A stretch of DNA of 34,381 nt from the NCBI GenBank assembly GCA_945865815.1, contig CAMBFR010000036.1:1-34381 (forward strand). The letters are read 5' to 3'. This document shows positions 1,806-34,295 of the stretch, piece by piece. This stretch comes from Candidatus Sulfopaludibacter sp. SbA3 (GTDB lineage Bacteria > Acidobacteriota > Terriglobia > 20CM-2-55-15). Positions within the stretch are counted from its first letter, which is position 1. Each line of letters opens with the position of its first letter. The translations under genes were made by a program, and so were the position numbers. Below the pieces are notes generated by a model. The model was not told where the DNA came from, ran no database searches, and was given only the letters and a program-made list of their open reading frames with translations.

Positions 1806-3530
1806 ATGAAACGACGTTCCGGGTGGATTTTTTCCCTCCTCTGCCTCGCCATGTTGGGCCTGTTGCATCAGTCCGCGGCGGCACAGACGACGCCGGACTC
1901 TCTGATAAGGCGGGCGCTCGGCGACGAACTCCGGCTTGCAATGGACGTGCTCGGCCAGAAGAGCGATCCGCCGGCCTATTTCATCGGTTACCAGGTGAAC
2001 GAAATAACCTCTGTGTCGGTTGATGGCTCGCGCGGCGCGTTGCGGAACAGCACCACGAATCGATCGCGGTTCCTCGACATCGACGTGCGGGTCGGAGACT
2101 ATGCATTCGACAATACGCACCAGATTCGCGGCCAGCGGGGCGTTGCAGGAGCGCCGGCGTATACGCCCCCGGTCCTGCTTCCGATTGATAACGACATCGA
2201 CGCTATCAAGAGCGTCATATGGCTTGAAACCGACCGCAGATACAAGGCCGCCGGCGAGCGCCTGACACAGGTGAAGGCCAACAGGGAGGTCAAGGTCGAA
2301 GAGGAAGACACCTCGGCCGATCTCTCGCGTGAAATAGCCCAGACGGCCGCGCTGCCGCTGGTGAACGTCGATCTGAAAGTTCCGGAATGGGAAACCAAGG
2401 TGAAGGCGTACTCCGCCCTATTCAAGAAGTACCCCGAAATTCTCGATGGATCGGCGGCGTTCAGTGTTACCGCAACGAATCAGTACGTTGTGAACAGCGA
2501 GGGCACGTCCATCCAGCACGGCGCCGTTCTTCTGCGCCTCAGCCTGTCGGCCCGGACGAAGGCCGACGACGGCATGGATCTGGACCGTTTCGAATCGTTC
2601 GATGCGCATACACTCGGCGGGCTTCCGTCTGACACCGTTGTCGAACAGAAAATCGAGCAGATCGTTCGCGACTTGAAGGCCCTGCGAGTGGCGCCGGTCA
2701 TCGAACCGTTTACCGGCCCGGCGATCCTTTCCGGCCGCGCCAGCGGCGTCTTTTTCCATGAAATTTTCGGCCATCGTATGGAGGGTCAGCGCCAGAAGAA
2801 TGAAGGCGAAGGCCAGACCTTCACACGGCAGATCAACAAGCCGGTCTTACCGGAATTCATTTCCGTGTTCGATGACCCGACGTCGCGGCAGATGGCCGGC
2901 ATCGACCTGAACGGCGCTTACGCCTTTGACGATGATGGCGTGCCGGCGCAGCGCGTGACGGTTGTCGACAAGGGAATTCTTCGCAACTTCCTTCTTTCGC
3001 GCGCGCCGATCGCCGGCTTTGAAAAATCCAACGGCCATGGGCGCAAAGCTCCCGGATATCGAAGCGTTGGAAGACAGGGCAACCTGATCGTCCAGGCATC
3101 CAACACCGTCACAAACGAAAAGCTGCGCGAAATGTTGATCGAAGAGGCCCGAAAGCAGGACAAGCCTTTTGGACTGCTGTTTGACGATATCTCCGGAGGC
3201 TTCACAACGACGCAGCGCTTCAGCCCCCAGGCCTTCCAAGTCACGCCCATCATGGTCTACCGCATCTACGTTGACGGACGGCCGGATGAACTCGTTCGCG
3301 GCGCCGAGTTGATCGGCACCCCCCTGACCTCGTTCAGCAAGATCGTGGCGGCCGGCGACAAACCGGAAGTCTTCAACGGTTACTGCGGCGCCGAATCGGG
3401 CTACATTCCGGTTTCCGCCATAGCGCCCGGCATTCTCACGACACAAATTGAAGTTCAGAAAAGAGCAAAGTCGTCGGACCGGCTACCTATTCTGCCGGCG
3501 CCTTCTGCGGATTCGAGGGGCAGGCTGTAA
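1806..3530 (+). CDS. tldD: Exported TldD/PmbA-family metalloprotease, intact metal site
   Basis: This 574-residue protein belongs to the TldD/TldE (U62) peptidase family. E. coli TldD is cytoplasmic and cleaves peptides such as microcin B17 precursor and CcdA. Here residues 1-27 form a signal peptide ending SAAAQ, so the enzyme should work in the periplasm. The metal motif is present: HEIFGH at residues 318-323 (HExxxH) and the expected third-ligand Cys in GYCGAESG near residue 527. ATG 1806 has AGGAG at 1795-1799, and a TAGAAT box lies at 1766-1771. The gene overlaps the next one by one base (TAATG), which implies translational coupling and a two-subunit product. Exported TldD-like proteins occur in several environmental phyla, and their substrates are unknown. 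Confidence 0.88.
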   Translation: MKRRSGWIFSLLCLAMLGLLHQSAAAQTTPDSLIRRALGDELRLAMDVLGQKSDPPAYFIGYQVNEITSVSVDGSRGALRNSTTNRSRFLDIDVRVGDYAFDNTHQIRGQRGVAGAPAYTPPVLLPIDNDIDAIKSVIWLETDRRYKAAGERLTQVKANREVKVEEEDTSADLSREIAQTAALPLVNVDLKVPEWETKVKAYSALFKKYPEILDGSAAFSVTATNQYVVNSEGTSIQHGAVLLRLSLSARTKADDGMDLDRFESFDAHTLGGLPSDTVVEQKIEQIVRDLKALRVAPVIEPFTGPAILSGRASGVFFHEIFGHRMEGQRQKNEGEGQTFTRQINKPVLPEFISVFDDPTSRQMAGIDLNGAYAFDDDGVPAQRVTVVDKGILRNFLLSRAPIAGFEKSNGHGRKAPGYRSVGRQGNLIVQASNTVTNEKLREMLIEEARKQDKPFGLLFDDISGGFTTTQRFSPQAFQVTPIMVYRIYVDGRPDELVRGAELIGTPLTSFSKIVAAGDKPEVFNGYCGAESGYIPVSAIAPGILTTQIEVQKRAKSSDRLPILPAPSADSRGRL

Positions 3531-5263
3531 TGAGAAACCGGTTTGCACAACTGGCAAGACTGCCAAAACTGCCAAAACTGAAGGTCGCGCTTTTCCTCGG
3601 CATCATTCTACCGGCCGCCGCTTTGATGTCCTTCGGTCAGGGTGGGACGGCCTCCGACAACGTCGTCATCAAAGCGATGAACGACGAGTTGCAACGGTCG
3701 GTGGCGGAACTGCGGCTCGGCAATCTCGACAAGCCATACTTCATTCAGTACGTCGTTCACGATGAAGAGGAATACAGCGCGGAGGCCACGTTCGGCGCAC
3801 TCACGTCTTCCGACAACAGTCATCGCCGTTACGTGCAGGTTCAGGTTCGCGTGGGCAGCTACGAGTTCGACAACACCGAGTTTGTTGCCGCCGGGTCCAA
3901 CGGCCCCTCGACGGGCGTTTTACTGTCGACCGTGGTCGACAACGACTACGACAACCTGCGGCATACGCTCTGGCTCGGAACCGACAGCGCGTACAAGCAG
4001 TCCGTTGAACTGCTGGCGCGTAAACGCGCCTTCATACAGAACAAGATCCAGGAAGTGCAACCGCCCGACTTCTCGAAAGAGGGTGCGACGCAATCCATTT
4101 CTTCCTCCGCACGCGGACTCGACTTTGACAAGGCGGGCATGGAGACGCGTCTGCGGGAATGGTCTCGAATTTTCAGGGAGTTTCCGGAGATTCAAACGTC
4201 GAATGTGAGGGTCATTGCGCGGCTCACGCATCGGTACATTGTGAATAACGAAGGCACCGCGACGTTGCAGCCCACAATGATCGTTTCGCTGGAAGTCAGC
4301 GCCGGCACGCAGTCATCGGACGGAATGCGGCTCTCGCATACCTTGCCGTTCAATGTTCGCAGTGTGGACCAGCTTCCGGCGGCAGAGTCGATTGCTCAAT
4401 CCATCCGGCAGCTTGCCGCCGATCTGACCAGCCTCCGCTCGGCTCCCGTCCTCGATGCCAATTATTCCGGACCCGTGCTCATGGCCGGCCAGGCATCCGC
4501 GGAGATGTTTGCCCGCATTCTGGCGCCGAACCTTTCCGGACAGCGCGGCCCCATGCTCGAACGTCAGCTTCAAGAGAACAACGTGAGCGATCTGGTAGAC
4601 CGGATGAACCGGCCCGTCCTTCCGGCGTACTTCTCTGTTTTCGACGATCCTGCACAACTCAACTCGGGAGACAAGAGCCTGATTGGCTACTATCCGGTGG
4701 ATGACCAGGGAATCCCGTCACAGCGCGTGTCATTGATCGAGGACGGCCTGCTCAAGAATATGCTGATGGGAAGACGGCCGGGAAAGCATCGGAATCAATC
4801 CAACGGCCACGGCCGTTCCGGCTATCCCGGGCGCGAAGCGGCGCAGATTGGAAATCTCTTCATAGCTGCCAGCGAAGGCAAGAACTATGAGGAACTGAAG
4901 CAGGAACTCATCCGGCTCGGCAGCACTGAAAAGCTCGAATACGCGCTGATTATCAAGTCGGTGGATAGTTCGGGACGCGGCCCGATCGGTACGCCGATAT
5001 TGACCTATAAGGTGTACATGGAAGACGGCCGGGAGGAATTAGTCCGGGGAACTTCGGTAAGAGGGCTGTCGGTACAGTCGTTGCGGCACATACAGGGCGC
5101 CGGGAGCGATCTGTTCGTCGCCAACCGCCTGACAGGCCCCCGAGGCACGGAGACTCCGGTCAGCGTCATTGCTCCTTCAGTGCTGCTGGAAGAAATGGAA
5201 CTCGAGCGCCCCACCGGCGTTCAGCAGAAACCCGCACTGCTCAGCCACCCGTATTTCCGATAA
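3530..5263 (+). CDS. Exported TldD-family paralogue with all metal ligands lost (TldE-like partner)
   Basis: This 577-residue protein aligns with the upstream TldD along most of its length: the DNDYDNLRHTLWL region, PVLPAYFSVFDDP, SNGHGR and ELVRGTSVRGL. Residues 1-37 form a signal sequence with a basic, Lys/Leu/Pro-repetitive n-region. At the position of HEIFGH it reads ARILAP (in SAEMFARILAPNLSG), so His, Glu and His are all replaced. The Cys-containing segment near the C-terminus is ANRLTGPRG, without Cys. It should therefore be non-catalytic. In E. coli the TldD/TldE heterodimer also pairs an active with an inactive subunit, so a heterodimer with the upstream product is likely. The start overlaps the upstream stop (TAATG). 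MITE copy 2 follows and ends transcription. Confidence 0.85.
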   Translation: MRNRFAQLARLPKLPKLKVALFLGIILPAAALMSFGQGGTASDNVVIKAMNDELQRSVAELRLGNLDKPYFIQYVVHDEEEYSAEATFGALTSSDNSHRRYVQVQVRVGSYEFDNTEFVAAGSNGPSTGVLLSTVVDNDYDNLRHTLWLGTDSAYKQSVELLARKRAFIQNKIQEVQPPDFSKEGATQSISSSARGLDFDKAGMETRLREWSRIFREFPEIQTSNVRVIARLTHRYIVNNEGTATLQPTMIVSLEVSAGTQSSDGMRLSHTLPFNVRSVDQLPAAESIAQSIRQLAADLTSLRSAPVLDANYSGPVLMAGQASAEMFARILAPNLSGQRGPMLERQLQENNVSDLVDRMNRPVLPAYFSVFDDPAQLNSGDKSLIGYYPVDDQGIPSQRVSLIEDGLLKNMLMGRRPGKHRNQSNGHGRSGYPGREAAQIGNLFIAASEGKNYEELKQELIRLGSTEKLEYALIIKSVDSSGRGPIGTPILTYKVYMEDGREELVRGTSVRGLSVQSLRHIQGAGSDLFVANRLTGPRGTETPVSVIAPSVLLEEMELERPTGVQQKPALLSHPYFR

Positions 5264-7219: not shown

Positions 7220-8368
7220 CTATCCCCTTCGCCCCGTGTCGATCACCGAGGCCCGTCCGATTTCTTTGACGGAACGGGCGCCGCATTGTCCCATCGCGAG
7301 ATTCAACTCGCGATTGAGAATGCCCAGGACGCGCTCGACACCAGGCTGTCCGAAACTGGCCAGGCCCCATATATAAGGCCGCCCGATACCCACGGCGCTT
7401 GCGCCGAGAGCGAGGGCTTTAACGGCATCGGTACCGCGCCGGACTCCGCCGTCGAGAAGAACCGGAATCCGCCCGCGTGTTCCGGCAACCACTTCCGACA
7501 GGCAATCGATTGTGCCGCGTCCGCTTTCACCGGCGCGCCCGCCATGGTTTGAAACGATAATCCCGTCGGCGCCGTTCTCGACCGCGAGTTCGGCGTCTTC
7601 GCGCGTCTCCAGTCCCTTCAAGAGTACTTTCATGGTCGTGAAATCCTTGAGCCGCTTCACAAAATCCCAGGCCAGCGTGGCGTCGGTCAAACCGGCGTTG
7701 GGCAGATTCTCGAACATGGGCTTGGCGCCGGAATGGCAATTGTCACATGTGGAAAGGTCGGATTGCCGCCGGAATCTCTCCTGCGTCTCGGTGTTCCTTC
7801 CCGCCGGAGTATCCACCGTGACGGCCACCACCGGACAGCCGGCCGTTTGCGCGCGCCGGACCAGTTGCTGCGCGCCGGCCCAGCTTCGGGTGGTATAGAG
7901 CTGGTACCACAAGCCGCCGCCCCGCGCTTCGATCACACGTTCGACAGCCACTGTCGTTTGAGTGGAAAGCACCTGCAGTGTGTTCGATTTTTGGGCGGCC
8001 TTCGCGCTTGCGATCTCACCCTCGGGATGAAATGCGGCCTGGCTTCCCACGGGACAAAGAAAAATCGGAGAATTGAATTTCGCGCCGAAGAGCTCGATCG
8101 ATGTGTCGATCCGGCTCACATCGACGAGGCGGCGGAACCGAAGCTGATAGTGGGCATACGCGTCTTCGTTGGCCCGCACGGTCCGGTCGTCGTCGACACC
8201 CGACGCAAGATAGCCCCAATGCTGGGGAAGCAACGCTTTCTGGGCCAGCGCTTCGAAGTCTTTGACGCTGAGCACCCGCGTTGCCGGATCCTGCGCGGCG
8301 CCCGCCGCTATCCCGGCAAACAACGGACTGCCGGCAAGAAATTTCAAGAACTCACGGCGATTCGACAT
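7220..8368 (-). CDS. Tat-exported FMN-dependent alpha-hydroxy-acid oxidase with a CXXCH motif
   Basis: This 382-residue protein belongs to the FMN-dependent alpha-hydroxy-acid oxidase/dehydrogenase family (lactate, glycolate or mandelate class). SNHGGRAG holds the catalytic His275 and substrate Arg278. LLDGGVRRGTD and GIGRPYIWG bind FMN phosphate, and YQLYTT is the usual Tyr motif. I chose ATG 8368 (MSNRREFLKF) over an ATG nine codons upstream because GGAGG lies 7 bases before it. This start gives a consensus twin-arginine signal, NRREFLK, so the folded flavoprotein is likely exported. Unusually, residues 208-212 read CDNCH, the c-type haem motif CXXCH, in the loop where barrel enzymes of this family vary most. 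It is cotranscribed with the M28 peptidase. The substrate cannot be told from sequence. Confidence 0.9.
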   Translation of the reverse strand: MSNRREFLKFLAGSPLFAGIAAGAAQDPATRVLSVKDFEALAQKALLPQHWGYLASGVDDDRTVRANEDAYAHYQLRFRRLVDVSRIDTSIELFGAKFNSPIFLCPVGSQAAFHPEGEIASAKAAQKSNTLQVLSTQTTVAVERVIEARGGGLWYQLYTTRSWAGAQQLVRRAQTAGCPVVAVTVDTPAGRNTETQERFRRQSDLSTCDNCHSGAKPMFENLPNAGLTDATLAWDFVKRLKDFTTMKVLLKGLETREDAELAVENGADGIIVSNHGGRAGESGRGTIDCLSEVVAGTRGRIPVLLDGGVRRGTDAVKALALGASAVGIGRPYIWGLASFGQPGVERVLGILNRELNLAMGQCGARSVKEIGRASVIDTGRRG

Positions 8369-14869: not shown

Positions 14870-16819
14870 ATGACTCGCCGTCTTCTTTACGTACTGCTGA
14901 TCACTTCACTGTTCTGCGCTATTCCGTTGATGGCCCAGTATGGGACGACAACCGGAGAGTGGCGCGTTACCAGCGGCGACGCCGGAGGCACGCGCTACTC
15001 GGCTCTCGATCAAATCACCCGCGACAACGTGAAGGACCTGAAAGTCGCCTGGACCTGGAAGTCCGATAATTTCGGCAGGTCCGAGCTCAAGAACGAGACC
15101 ACGCCGATCATGGTGAATGGCGTTCTCTATTTCACCGCCGGCGACCGGCGCGCCGTTGTCGCCGCAGACGCAGGAACCGGCGAGACCCTGTGGATCTGGA
15201 GAATGGATGAAGGCGAACGGTATCAGCGGGCGCCCCGAAGGACCTCCGGACGCGGCGTCACCTATTGGGCCGACGGGCAGGACGAACGCATCTACACAAT
15301 CACTCCGGGATTCCGGCTGGTTGCATTAAACGCAAAGACCGGCCAGCCGGTGCAGAGCTTCGGCCAGAACGGCATGGCCGATCTTTTCAATGACTACACC
15401 TACACCGAGGAACTTACCGGCAAGATCGGCAACAGCTCGCCGCCGGTTATTTCAAATGGCGTCATCGTGGTTGGTCCCGCGCTGCTCGTGGGCAACCGCG
15501 TGAACCGGGAAAACGTGAAGGCCGATATCAACGGATACGACGTCAGGACCGGCCGAAAACTCTGGACCTTCCACACCATCCCGCGCGCGGGTGAACCCGG
15601 TTACGAAACATGGCTGAACGGTTCCGCCGACTACACCGGCAATGTCGGACTCTGGCCGCCCTTCTCTGTCGATAGCGAGCTCGGGTACGTGTACCTTCCC
15701 ATTGAAGCCGGAACCAACGACGCGTACGGCGGGCATCGGCCCGGCACGAATCTTTATTCCAGTTCGCTGGTGTGCGCGGATATCCGGACAGGAAAGATCA
15801 TCTGGCACCACCAGCTGGTGCATCACGATATCTGGGATCTCGACATGCCTTCGACGCCCATTCTGCTCGACTTCAACGCCAACGGCCGCCGCGTCAAGGG
15901 CGTGGTTCAACTCACAAAGCAGGCGTTCGCATATGTGTTCGACCGCGTCACGGGCCAGCCGGTCTGGCCAATTGAGGAGCGGCCGGTTCCGAAGGGCGAC
16001 GTTCCAGGCGAATGGTACGCCCCCACACAGCCTTTTCCCACGAAGCCTCCGGCTTTCGATCGGCAGGGGCTGACGCCCGACGATCTGGTCGACTTCACGC
16101 CGGCCATCAAGCAACAGGCGCTGCAGGTTGTCGAGGGATACCGGATCGGACCGCTCTTTACGCCACCCGCGCTGGCCGCATCGCCGGACGGGACCAAGGG
16201 ACTGATCGCAGTACCCGGCTTCACCGGCGGCGCAAATTGGGAATCCGGAGCCGCGGACCCGGAGACCGGATTCGTGTATGTCGGCTCTCAGACATTGCCG
16301 ACGCTGGTGGCATTGGTCAAACCGCAAAACAACCAGTACAACTCGGATTTCATCGGCGGCGGCGGCCAGGTTCCCCAGATCGAAGGCTTCCCACTCGTGA
16401 AACCTCCCTATGGGCGCATAACGGCGTATGACATGAACCGGGGCGAAATCGCGTGGCAGACGGTGAATGGCGACACGCCGCCTGCAATCAAAGCGCGCGC
16501 GGCACAGCAAGGCATAACCCTCCCGAAAACCGGCAGCAGCTCGCGCGCGGGAATCCTGGTTACGAAGAATTTGCTTTTTGCGGGCGAGGGTTGGGGCGGA
16601 CAGCCGATGTTTCGCGCCTACGATAAGCGAACCGGCGAGATCATCTGGGAAACACAGATTCCCGGCGTGCAGACCGGTTTGCCCATGACCTATCTGCACC
16701 AGGGCAGGCAATACGTCGTATTCTCGACCGGAGACGGCCAGACGCCCGCGCAGTTGGTGGCCTTCGCAGTACCTCCGGCGCCCGCGGCTCCGGCAGCGCC
16801 GGCGGCGCCGGCTCGATGA
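14870..16819 (+). CDS. Periplasmic PQQ-dependent (quinoprotein) alcohol/sugar dehydrogenase
   Basis: This 649-residue protein resembles PQQ dehydrogenases of the glucose/alcohol dehydrogenase type. The start ATG 14870 has TGGAGG 8 bases before it and opens a signal peptide (residues 1-23, ...IPLMAQ). An in-frame ATG at 14801 lacks both. The mature protein shows propeller motifs: WRVTSGDAGGTRYSALDQI, LKVAWTWK, RLVALNAKTGQPV, GRKLWTFHTIPR, GKIIWHHQLVHHDIWDLD and GEIIWETQIPG, the A-x-(D/N)-x-x-TG-x-x-x-W blades of the eight-bladed fold. It has no transmembrane domain and no cytochrome c domain, so electrons must pass to a separate cytochrome or quinone. The C-terminus is a Pro/Ala run. The gene overlaps the next ORF by ATGA. 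Confidence 0.9.
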   Translation: MTRRLLYVLLITSLFCAIPLMAQYGTTTGEWRVTSGDAGGTRYSALDQITRDNVKDLKVAWTWKSDNFGRSELKNETTPIMVNGVLYFTAGDRRAVVAADAGTGETLWIWRMDEGERYQRAPRRTSGRGVTYWADGQDERIYTITPGFRLVALNAKTGQPVQSFGQNGMADLFNDYTYTEELTGKIGNSSPPVISNGVIVVGPALLVGNRVNRENVKADINGYDVRTGRKLWTFHTIPRAGEPGYETWLNGSADYTGNVGLWPPFSVDSELGYVYLPIEAGTNDAYGGHRPGTNLYSSSLVCADIRTGKIIWHHQLVHHDIWDLDMPSTPILLDFNANGRRVKGVVQLTKQAFAYVFDRVTGQPVWPIEERPVPKGDVPGEWYAPTQPFPTKPPAFDRQGLTPDDLVDFTPAIKQQALQVVEGYRIGPLFTPPALAASPDGTKGLIAVPGFTGGANWESGAADPETGFVYVGSQTLPTLVALVKPQNNQYNSDFIGGGGQVPQIEGFPLVKPPYGRITAYDMNRGEIAWQTVNGDTPPAIKARAAQQGITLPKTGSSSRAGILVTKNLLFAGEGWGGQPMFRAYDKRTGEIIWETQIPGVQTGLPMTYLHQGRQYVVFSTGDGQTPAQLVAFAVPPAPAAPAAPAAPAR

Positions 16820-25851: not shown

Positions 25852-26871
25852 TTAGGTTGGGATTTTCTTATTCATCCTCGGATAGACCTTGCGTGCATTG
25901 CCTTCAAAGATCTTCTGCTTGTCGGCGGCGCTGATCGACTTGTTATTGTCGATGTACTGCTTCGTGTCGTCGTAAAACTGGCCGGACTCGGGATCGAGGC
26001 CGCGGACGGCGCCGACCATCTCCGATCCGAACAGGATGTTATCGGCGGGAATGATTTTGAGAAGCAGGTCGATTCCAGCCTGGTGGTATACGCACGTGTC
26101 GAAAAACACGTTGTTCCGGATCATATCGCTCAACAGCGGGCGTTTCATATCCTGCGCAAGGCCGCGATAGCGTCCCCAGTGGTAAGGCACCGCGCCGCCG
26201 CCGTGCGGAATGATGAATCGCAGCCCCGGAAAATCCTTGAAAAGGTCGGCCGTAATGAACTGCATGAATGCGGTCGTGTCGGCGTTGATGTAATACGCTC
26301 CGGTGGTATGGAACGCGGGCACGCACGAGCCGCTGACGTGGATCATTGCGGGAACATCCAGCTCGACCATCTTTTCGTAGAACGGATACCAGTACTTGTC
26401 CGTGAGCGGTGGCGCGGTCCAGTGCCCGCCTGAAGGATCCGGATTCAGATTGCACCCGATAAAACCATACTCATTGACGCAGCGCTCGAGTTCCGCGATC
26501 GAGTTCGACGGCGGCAGCCCCGGCGTCTGCGGGAGCTGGCACACACCGATGAAATTCCGCGGATAGAGCGTGCAAATGCGATGGATCAGGTCGTTGCAGT
26601 GCTGGGTCCAGTGCAGGCTGGTGGTGGCGTCGCCTACGTGATGCCCCATACCGGACGCGCGCGGGGAAAAGATCGTCAAGTCGGCTCCCCGCTCCCGCTG
26701 AAGCTTGAGCTGGGCGCCTTCGACGCTCTGGCGGAGTTCGTCATCGCTGATGCCGAGCGAGCCCTTTGACGCAACATTCGAGGGATTCTTCAACCCTGTG
26801 ATCTGGCTGTCACGGTAGTCCTGAAGTTGCTTCGGCGCTGTCGTGTAGTGTCCGTGGCAATCGATAATCAT
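25852..26871 (-). CDS. ligJ: 4-oxalomesaconate hydratase
   Basis: This 339-residue amidohydrolase-superfamily protein closely resembles LigJ of Sphingobium. The segments MIIDCHGHYTTAPK (HxH metal pair), RGADLTIFSPRASGM, GCNLNPDPSGGHW, PAMIHVSGSC, NADTTAFMQFITADLFKDFP, IPHGGGAVPYHWGRYRGLAQ and GNARKVYPR follow the LigJ pattern as I recall it. LigJ hydrates 4-oxalomesaconate to 4-carboxy-4-hydroxy-2-oxoadipate in the protocatechuate 4,5-cleavage and gallate routes. Length is normal. It is the first gene of the minus-strand unit with the MetE-like and hydrolase genes, and is divergent from ligC. No good Shine-Dalgarno is visible before ATG 26871. A decarboxylase of the ACMSD type is the alternative but fits less well. 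Confidence 0.9.
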   Translation of the reverse strand: MIIDCHGHYTTAPKQLQDYRDSQITGLKNPSNVASKGSLGISDDELRQSVEGAQLKLQRERGADLTIFSPRASGMGHHVGDATTSLHWTQHCNDLIHRICTLYPRNFIGVCQLPQTPGLPPSNSIAELERCVNEYGFIGCNLNPDPSGGHWTAPPLTDKYWYPFYEKMVELDVPAMIHVSGSCVPAFHTTGAYYINADTTAFMQFITADLFKDFPGLRFIIPHGGGAVPYHWGRYRGLAQDMKRPLLSDMIRNNVFFDTCVYHQAGIDLLLKIIPADNILFGSEMVGAVRGLDPESGQFYDDTKQYIDNNKSISAADKQKIFEGNARKVYPRMNKKIPT

Positions 26872-32431: not shown

Positions 32432-33115
32432 ATGAAACCCACGATCGTAAAGCGAATTCCAAGGGCCGATGCCGCGGCCGTCAAGACGCTCGGCGAACTC
32501 GGCGTGGCCACGGTTCACGAAGCGCAAGGCCGGATCGGACTGATGAAGCCCTACATGCGGCCCATCTATCCGACCGCAAAGACGTCGGGCAACGCCATTA
32601 CCGTCTCGTGCGCTCCGGGTGATAACCTGATGATCCACGCCGCGCTGGAATTCGTTCAGCAGGGAGACATCCTGGTCGTTGTAACGACATCGGAATCCAC
32701 GGACGGGATGTTCGGGGATTTACTGGGTGTTTCGTGCCAGGCGCGTGGCGTAGTTGGTCTTATTATTGAGGCTGGAGTTCGCGACGTGGCGGACCTGACG
32801 ACAATGGACTTCCCCGTGTGGTCGAAGGCGATCTCGGCGCAGGGCACGGTCAAGGACACTCCGGGATCGGTAAACATTCCGATCGTTTGCGCCGGCGTCA
32901 GCATTCGTCCCGGAGACGTCATTGTTGCCGACGTGGACGGGGTTTGTGTTGTCGAGCGGCAGGCTGCTACAGAAATCGCGCGGCTTGGAAACGAGCGTGT
33001 CGCGAAGGAAGCAAAGTCGCGGGAACGGCTCCGGGCGGGCGAACTGGGATTGGATTTTTACGGATTGCGCGCGAAGATCACTGAACTCGGAATCCGTTAC
33101 GTGGATGAAGAATAA
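32432..33115 (+). CDS. ligK: 4-carboxy-4-hydroxy-2-oxoadipate aldolase
   Basis: This 227-residue RraA-like protein has the pattern of class II HMG/CHA aldolases (LigK, GalC, ProA): ELGVATVHEAQGRIGLM, TVSCAPGDNLMIHAAL, GLIIEAGVRD (catalytic Arg and metal-binding Asp) and GDVIVADVDGVCVV. It cleaves CHA to pyruvate and oxaloacetate with a divalent metal, and it can also decarboxylate oxaloacetate. GAGG lies 11 bases before ATG 32432. The next gene starts ten bases after its stop. Together with LigJ, LigC and the dioxygenase here, it marks the protocatechuate 4,5-cleavage pathway. A plain RraA regulator is unlikely because of this context and the longer C-terminus. Confidence 0.92.
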   Translation: MKPTIVKRIPRADAAAVKTLGELGVATVHEAQGRIGLMKPYMRPIYPTAKTSGNAITVSCAPGDNLMIHAALEFVQQGDILVVVTTSESTDGMFGDLLGVSCQARGVVGLIIEAGVRDVADLTTMDFPVWSKAISAQGTVKDTPGSVNIPIVCAGVSIRPGDVIVADVDGVCVVERQAATEIARLGNERVAKEAKSRERLRAGELGLDFYGLRAKITELGIRYVDEE

Positions 33116-33125
33116 GGAGTAGATC

Positions 33126-34295
33126 ATGGGCGAAATAGTTGCAGCATTTGGCGTGTGTCACGCGCCGCAGTTGATCTGGCGGCCACCCGACGAAAAGCCG
33201 GAAATGATGGATGCGAGTATTGCGGCGATGCGCGCGCTCGGGAAAGTTCTCGACGAAACCAAGCCGGATGCCATCATTTTCCTCGGCAGCGACCACCTGG
33301 AAACCTATTCCCTGAACTGCGTTCCGACTTTCGCGCTCGTTTCCGGAACCCGTGCAATCTCGCACTTCGGCGGCAAGGTATACGACCTGCCGATTCATCG
33401 CGAACTGGCCGAAGATCTGCTCGAAAAACTGATTCGCGCCGACTTCGACATCGCATATTCCGAATTCGCCGAGCTCGGCCACACGTTCGCGACTCCCTTT
33501 GAATATGTGCTCGAAGGACGCGACATTCCCATTGTTCCCTTCCTGACGAACGTTTACCTGCCGCCCCTGCCGACAATGCGGCGTTGCGCGGCGATGGGAA
33601 GAGAAATCCGGAAAATCGTCGAGTCGCGGAAGGAGAGAGTGTGCCTTCTCGCCAGCGGCGGCATGTCGCACTATCCGGGAACATCGAAGTACCACTACCC
33701 CGAATACGGGTTCGACCACTGGATGATTGCCCAGCTGGAGCTTGGCAACTTTGACGCGATTCTGAACCTCACGCCCGAACAACTCGATGAGACGGGAAAT
33801 ACGGAAATGCTCAACTGGGCGCCCATGCTGGGAGCCCTTGGATCCGTGCCGGGCGAATTGCTGCAGTACACGCCCACGTGGCATCACGGCCACGGATACA
33901 TGCGATTCCTTCCTCAGCGTGAGAGAAAGAATCCCGTGACCGAAGTATTAAAGGACTACGGCGGATTCAATTTCAAGAATCAGGGTTTCGAGTTTTATGT
34001 TCATCCGCCGGCTTCGGCATACGACCTGAACCGGCTTCTGTTTGAAGTTCGCCACGATTCCGGACTGCGGGAGAGGATCATGAAGGATCCTGAGGCAGTC
34101 GGAGCGGAATACGGACTCGAGGGCCAGCAGCGCAAATCCATCCGGGCCCTGGTTGACGCGACCACCGCGAAGGTTGTCAGCGAATACGTCAAGCCCTTGG
34201 CCGATGCCGGCGCCCATCCTCTGCAGGCGCTCATGTGCCTCCATACGATTGCCTCGGAAAGCCGCCGGAAGCTTCAGGAATCCCATACCAAGTAA
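33126..34295 (+). CDS. Extradiol ring-cleavage dioxygenase, LigB-LigA fusion (protocatechuate 4,5- or gallate dioxygenase)
   Basis: This 389-residue protein joins two domains. Residues about 1-285 are the catalytic LigB (beta) type, with iron ligands His12 in FGVCHAPQL and His57 in FLGSDHLE, as in Sphingobium LigB, plus ELGHTFATPFEY, SGGMSHYPGT and NWAPMLGALG. Residues about 295-380 match the LigA (alpha) subunit: YDLNRLLFEVRHDSGLRERI, then MKDPEAVGAEYGL and a helical tail with ALMCLHTIA. Fused beta-alpha enzymes are known for gallate dioxygenases (GalA, DesB), whereas classical LigAB uses two genes. The presence of ligC, which is needed for protocatechuate but not gallate, favours protocatechuate or dual use. 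AAGGAG overlaps the ligK stop. Confidence 0.9.
   Translation: MGEIVAAFGVCHAPQLIWRPPDEKPEMMDASIAAMRALGKVLDETKPDAIIFLGSDHLETYSLNCVPTFALVSGTRAISHFGGKVYDLPIHRELAEDLLEKLIRADFDIAYSEFAELGHTFATPFEYVLEGRDIPIVPFLTNVYLPPLPTMRRCAAMGREIRKIVESRKERVCLLASGGMSHYPGTSKYHYPEYGFDHWMIAQLELGNFDAILNLTPEQLDETGNTEMLNWAPMLGALGSVPGELLQYTPTWHHGHGYMRFLPQRERKNPVTEVLKDYGGFNFKNQGFEFYVHPPASAYDLNRLLFEVRHDSGLRERIMKDPEAVGAEYGLEGQQRKSIRALVDATTAKVVSEYVKPLADAGAHPLQALMCLHTIASESRRKLQESHTK

Follow-up and report, generated by a model that had tools for sequence, protein, structure and literature searches.

The window, a stretch of 34,381 nucleotides from Candidatus Sulfopaludibacter sp. SbA3, encodes a protein of the FMN-dependent alpha-hydroxy-acid dehydrogenase/oxidase family that combines a twin-arginine (Tat) signal with a CxxCH motif (Table 1). 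The frame begins with ATG, and its product matches the Pfam family FMN_dh (PF01070) over profile positions 1-348 of 350, with the barrel match beginning near residue 32-42. The N-terminus, MSNRREFLKFLAGSPLFAG, is a twin-arginine signal by sequence, and its RRxFLxxLA(A/G)SP pattern is common to other members of the clade described below that have an intact N-terminus. The motif, CDNCH, lies in loop 4 of the barrel, which forms the active-site lid. No Pfam cytochrome c domain was found in the 382-residue protein, and no other haem-carrying domain was matched. The initial annotation had reported a Tat signal on this flavoprotein and a CxxCH haem motif at residues 208-212; the N-terminal sequence bears out the former, and the position of the latter agrees exactly.

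Two other loci in the window also encode apparently exported proteins. Two adjacent proteins with PmbA/TldD C-terminal domains (PF19289) have signal-peptide-like N-termini and appear to be exported relatives of a normally cytoplasmic pair. A PQQ-dependent dehydrogenase (PF01011, 1.4e-183), encoded near the flavoprotein gene, is likely to be periplasmic as well.

Table 1. Features of the window, with nucleotide positions counted from its first base and residues numbered along the flavoprotein.
Feature	Position	Strand	Remarks
FMN-dependent alpha-hydroxy-acid dehydrogenase/oxidase family protein, with Tat signal and CxxCH	7220..8368	-	382 aa plus stop; Pfam FMN_dh, E = 2.5e-106
Tat signal peptide region, residues 1-24 (MSNRREFLKFLAGSPLFAGIAAGA)	8297..8368	-	by sequence, without a tool-predicted cleavage site
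His50, candidate distal haem ligand	8219..8221	-	48/48 in clade, 0/30 outside
CDNCH, residues 208-212, putative haem c attachment motif, loop 4	7733..7747	-	48/48 in clade; absent in L116 and L004
Met218 of KPM motif, alternative candidate distal haem ligand	7715..7717	-	46/48 in clade, 0 outside
His275, catalytic base	7544..7546	-	invariant inside and outside the clade
Two adjacent PmbA/TldD C-terminal-domain proteins	1806..5263	+	PF19289
PQQ-dependent dehydrogenase	14873..16816	+	PF01011
Amidohydrolase	25855..26871	-	
RraA-like aldolase	32432..33112	+	
LigB-type ring-cleavage dioxygenase	33126..34292	+	

Conservation and distribution of the motif

Given the composition of the protein (6 Cys and 5 His in 382 residues), about 0.0012 CxxCH motifs per protein would be expected by chance. 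Homologues were translated and aligned from 396 genomes of the same phylum, 101 relatives, a Nevskiaceae MAG and a Methylobacterium bullatum plasmid, and a wider set with intermediate relatives was added for a tree in which the loop columns were masked. CxxCH is present in 46/46 close homologues in the alignment and in every one of the 48 members of a clade in the wider tree, and is absent from the 30 other family members examined. Proteins of this clade have a median pairwise identity of 51%, and the two central residues of their motif are highly variable, with 34 different pairs. The loop around it is poorly conserved (median top-residue frequency of 0.48 vs 0.69 for the rest of the protein), and between residues 187 and 233 only Asn192, Cys208, Cys211, His212 and Met218 are at least 95% conserved. 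Because the motif is kept in 46/46 and 48/48 proteins while the surrounding loop varies, a chance origin is ruled out. The initial annotation had accepted that a motif not conserved in close homologues would refute its haem proposal, and this ground for refutation fails. The same genome also encodes a second copy of the protein (57% identity), with CTSCH at the same place.

In the loop-masked tree, the 48 CxxCH proteins form a single clade without internal exception, which excludes all 30 proteins lacking the motif. Its members come from the phylum of the window, the Nevskiaceae MAG and the Methylobacterium bullatum plasmid; a search of 274 genomes from the class of the Nevskiaceae MAG found no further carriers. 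As far as sequences alone can tell, CxxCH was gained once on this tree, with a support of 0.62 for the base of the clade. Its two sister proteins (L116 and L004) carry a Tat signal and lack both CxxCH and the extra loop length, and Tat export is consequently older than CxxCH. Within the clade, all 47 members with an intact N-terminus carry the signal. The initial annotation had suggested looking for co-variation of CxxCH, a distal Met or His ligand and Tat signals; such co-variation is found, with CxxCH, His50 and a [KR]P-Met that follows it along the chain after the motif forming one clade-specific set.

An apparent lack of the Tat signal in L033, L037, L039, L040, L041 and L117 was dismissed as a matter of start-codon choice, in-frame Tat signals being present upstream. 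Four of these belong to a subgroup (L037, L039, L040, L041 and L132) with an additional CxxCG pair in the segment that links the Tat signal to the barrel (CPDCG, CADCG and CPGCG, for example). One carrier genome, G474 (L059/L102), has an in-frame TAG inside the gene, likely reflecting a pseudogene or a sequencing error.

Fold, active site and candidate haem ligands

An AlphaFold model built with 58 aligned sequences (mean pLDDT 93.8) adopts the glycolate-oxidase fold, and its top Foldseek match is spinach glycolate oxidase (1gox; TM 0.92, 1.8 A, 40% identity). In this model a short helix spanning mature residues 179-186 has CDNCH at its end, and in that of the paralogue, built without the plasmid-derived sequence, a short helical turn starts at the first motif Cys. 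Within the barrel, both models are least confident in this loop, where block confidence falls to 67-82 for the window protein. Loop 4 is flexible, often unseen in crystals, and contributes to catalysis (PMC10153336).

The catalytic residues Tyr53, Tyr158, Asp186, Lys251, His275 and Arg278 are all conserved. By the sequence match to solved structures, Tyr53 is the counterpart of Tyr24 in spinach glycolate oxidase, and His275 corresponds to its His254. Conservation of Tyr158, Asp186, Lys251, His275 and Arg278 points to the family's usual FMN-dependent oxidation of a 2-hydroxy acid, the substrate class itself being inferred. Residue 191, which aligns to the substrate-binding Arg164 of glycolate oxidase, is an arginine in only 33/48 clade members, and since this arginine is not strictly kept, the substrate may differ from glycolate or lactate. 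The amidohydrolase, RraA-like and LigB-type genes of the window suggest a protocatechuate/gallate meta-cleavage route nearby, a possible hint at aromatic hydroxy acids as substrates of the flavoprotein.

Two conserved residues that co-occur with the motif are candidates for a distal haem ligand. The first, His50, lies in the substrate pocket, three residues before the active-site Tyr53; glycolate oxidase 1gox has a valine there. The second, Met218, is usually preceded by [KR]P and follows CxxCH at a distance of 5-21 residues in the members where this was scored. It is missing in a few members (L043, L032 and L051), so His/Met ligation cannot be general. On sequence distribution, and with no geometry measured, His50 is the more regular of the two candidates, its ligation being inferred.

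Proposed haem attachment and competing explanations of the motif

Covalent attachment of haem c would require a maturation system, and the genome contains CcmF-like (682 aa) and CcmC-like (266 aa) frames. ResB (System II) is absent from this genome, which makes System I the likely attachment route. The Ccm family PF01578 was also detected in 41/41 further genomes, which had been picked from the gene searches (40 CxxCH carriers plus G172, the genome of L116, the sister protein without the motif). Since the search did not cover non-carriers as a group, the presence of Ccm is weak evidence, consistent with haem attachment but no correlation with the motif. For recognition, System I needs little more than CxxCH, and it modifies peptides of 12 residues (PMC3601427). 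Some of the features expected of a c-type cytochrome are in place: a CxxCH conserved in homologues, export through Tat, and a Ccm attachment family. The export route itself speaks against haem attachment. Cytochromes c of the periplasm usually leave the cytoplasm through Sec, before they fold (PMC3601427). Tat export is odd for such a protein, and here Ccm would need to work on a loop of a chain that has already folded. Split-Soret cytochromes c have been described with predicted Tat signals (PMC4429474). We infer that the flexible surface loop is the one part of the folded flavoprotein that is open to Ccm.

The conserved residues could instead bind a metal ion. Cys208, Cys211, His212, Met218 and His50 might hold copper, zinc or mononuclear iron rather than haem, as two invariant cysteines, two invariant histidines and a near-invariant methionine have the make-up of a copper or zinc site, and the exported protein reaches a compartment where copper is available. 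We consider this improbable: the adjacent Cys211 and His212 are awkward for one metal ion, the spacing from Cys-His to Met ranges from 5 to 21 residues, and an exported CxxCH in a Ccm-bearing cell is expected to receive haem (PMC3601427). A zinc site with four cysteines was rejected, as no further Cys is invariant among 46 aligned close homologues; a zinc site, which the initial annotation had listed among the outcomes that would refute haem, is in this form unsupported.

The two cysteines might alternatively be joined in a disulfide with a structural or a redox role, making the lid more rigid or passing electrons on, and the histidine would then serve only to tune their pKa. CxxC pairs in the periplasm are open to oxidation (PMC3601427), and such a bond would tether a loop that is otherwise flexible. 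A structural disulfide, however, needs neither an invariant adjacent His nor the distant invariant His50, and the known members of the family do without a thiol relay in delivering electrons to oxygen, quinone or cytochrome c (PMC8491902), making this explanation very improbable. Although single-CxxCH hits in proteome scans are mostly random (PMC4429474), it is scarcely tenable that the motif is a functionless lineage relic or a chance match in an ordinary oxidase, which its conservation already contradicts: it is retained in 48/48 proteins at a median identity of 51%, within a variable loop whose varied XX and linker length mark it as free to change, and the combination of conservation and a signal sequence used as a criterion in the same study is met.

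Proposed electron transfer and relation to known enzymes

The reading we prefer, with a probability of roughly 0.8, is that the protein is a periplasmic FMN/haem-c dehydrogenase, in which a haem c attached to loop 4 by Ccm carries electrons from FMN to a cytochrome c or another periplasmic acceptor. Haem attachment, ligation, electron path and substrate class are inferred, with no spectra, haem stain or FMN-haem distance to support them. In the proposed sequence of events, FMN would be bound and the (beta/alpha)8 barrel folded in the cytoplasm, and Tat would export the folded protein. In the periplasm, Ccm would attach one haem c to Cys208 and Cys211 on the flexible lid, with His212 as the proximal ligand and either His50 or Met218 as the distal one. 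The conserved Tyr/Lys/His/Arg active site would oxidise a 2-hydroxy acid, and reduced FMN would pass electrons one at a time to the lid haem, which would hand them on to a periplasmic acceptor such as a soluble cytochrome c. A more specific version, which we offer tentatively and regard as somewhat more apt to be wrong than right, is a bis-His haem c that acts as the lid itself. Here the loop-4 CxxCH and His50, next to Tyr53, would clamp the haem over the mouth of the FMN pocket, coupling lid closure to electron exit, and Ccm would load a folded, Tat-exported flavoprotein.

The FMN_dh family is divided according to the electron acceptor, which is oxygen, quinone or, through a fused haem b domain, cytochrome c. 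Glycolate oxidase/hydroxyacid oxidase (1gox, EC 1.1.3.15) is the closest solved fold and shares the active-site residues, but it passes electrons to O2 and has neither a Tat signal nor CxxCH. In the (S)-mandelate dehydrogenase of Pseudomonas putida, a long loop 4 serves as the membrane anchor. This enzyme (EC 1.1.99.31; 1huv, 6bfg) likewise combines the FMN_dh barrel and a special loop 4 with electron delivery to the respiratory chain, and differs in using quinone as acceptor (PMC8491902) and in lacking CxxCH. Flavocytochrome b2 (L-lactate:cytochrome c oxidoreductase, EC 1.1.2.3) also has the FMN_dh barrel, and its haem carries electrons from FMN to cytochrome c. That haem resides in a separate N-terminal b5-type cytochrome domain (PMC8348568), whereas the motif of the window protein is of the covalent type and lies inside loop 4. 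The cytochrome b5 domain (PF00173) that defines flavocytochrome b2 has no Pfam match in the window protein. By analogy, and with the haem relay inferred, flavocytochrome b2 may be regarded as the nearest functional analogue.

Outside the family, FAD-containing flavocytochromes c, such as sulfide dehydrogenase and p-cresol methylhydroxylase, pair a flavin with haem c in the periplasm, as proposed here, but use FAD and other folds and carry the haem on a separate subunit. A minimal Magnetochrome (MamP) haem c domain fused to FAD glucose dehydrogenase demonstrates that CxxCH with few surrounding residues can be the electron outlet of a flavoenzyme (PMC8348568); this fusion is man-made, unlike the natural lid-loop insertion of the window protein. 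Haem-c Cache domains (DUF3365/Tll0287) similarly hold a short CxxCH fragment in a non-cytochrome fold, with haem c demonstrated (preprint PMC12889525), but they are sensor domains that have no flavin and no dehydrogenase activity. The variants named in a 2021 survey of EC 1.1.3.15 are limited to those with a b5 domain or a long loop 4 (PMC8491902). No haem-c member of the FMN_dh family was found in the open-access literature, which does not prove absence, and none of the solved family structures matched by sequence and fold is described as a haem-c protein. The CxxCH branch suggests an undescribed wiring of a 2-hydroxy-acid enzyme to the respiratory chain, with the haem inferred. If correct, a haem c inside the catalytic barrel would add another route to an acceptor, far more compact than the others, and would account for the access of a Tat-exported member to the respiratory chain. 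The automatic annotation as ‘oxidase’ would then be wrong for the clade, and the enzyme would be a test case for haem loading by Ccm on a Tat substrate that has already folded. It would also be a natural enzyme of small size that could transfer electrons directly to electrodes.

Across the neighbourhoods of 34 target hits, no conserved operon partner or partner cytochrome was found, and without a conserved neighbour a stand-alone enzyme feeding a common cytochrome pool fits. Candidate partners occur only in single cases: at locus L076, for example, the flavoprotein gene is preceded at ~40 bp by a gene on the same strand for a 107-residue monohaem cytochrome c (7411-7732, + strand), which may be its electron partner there.
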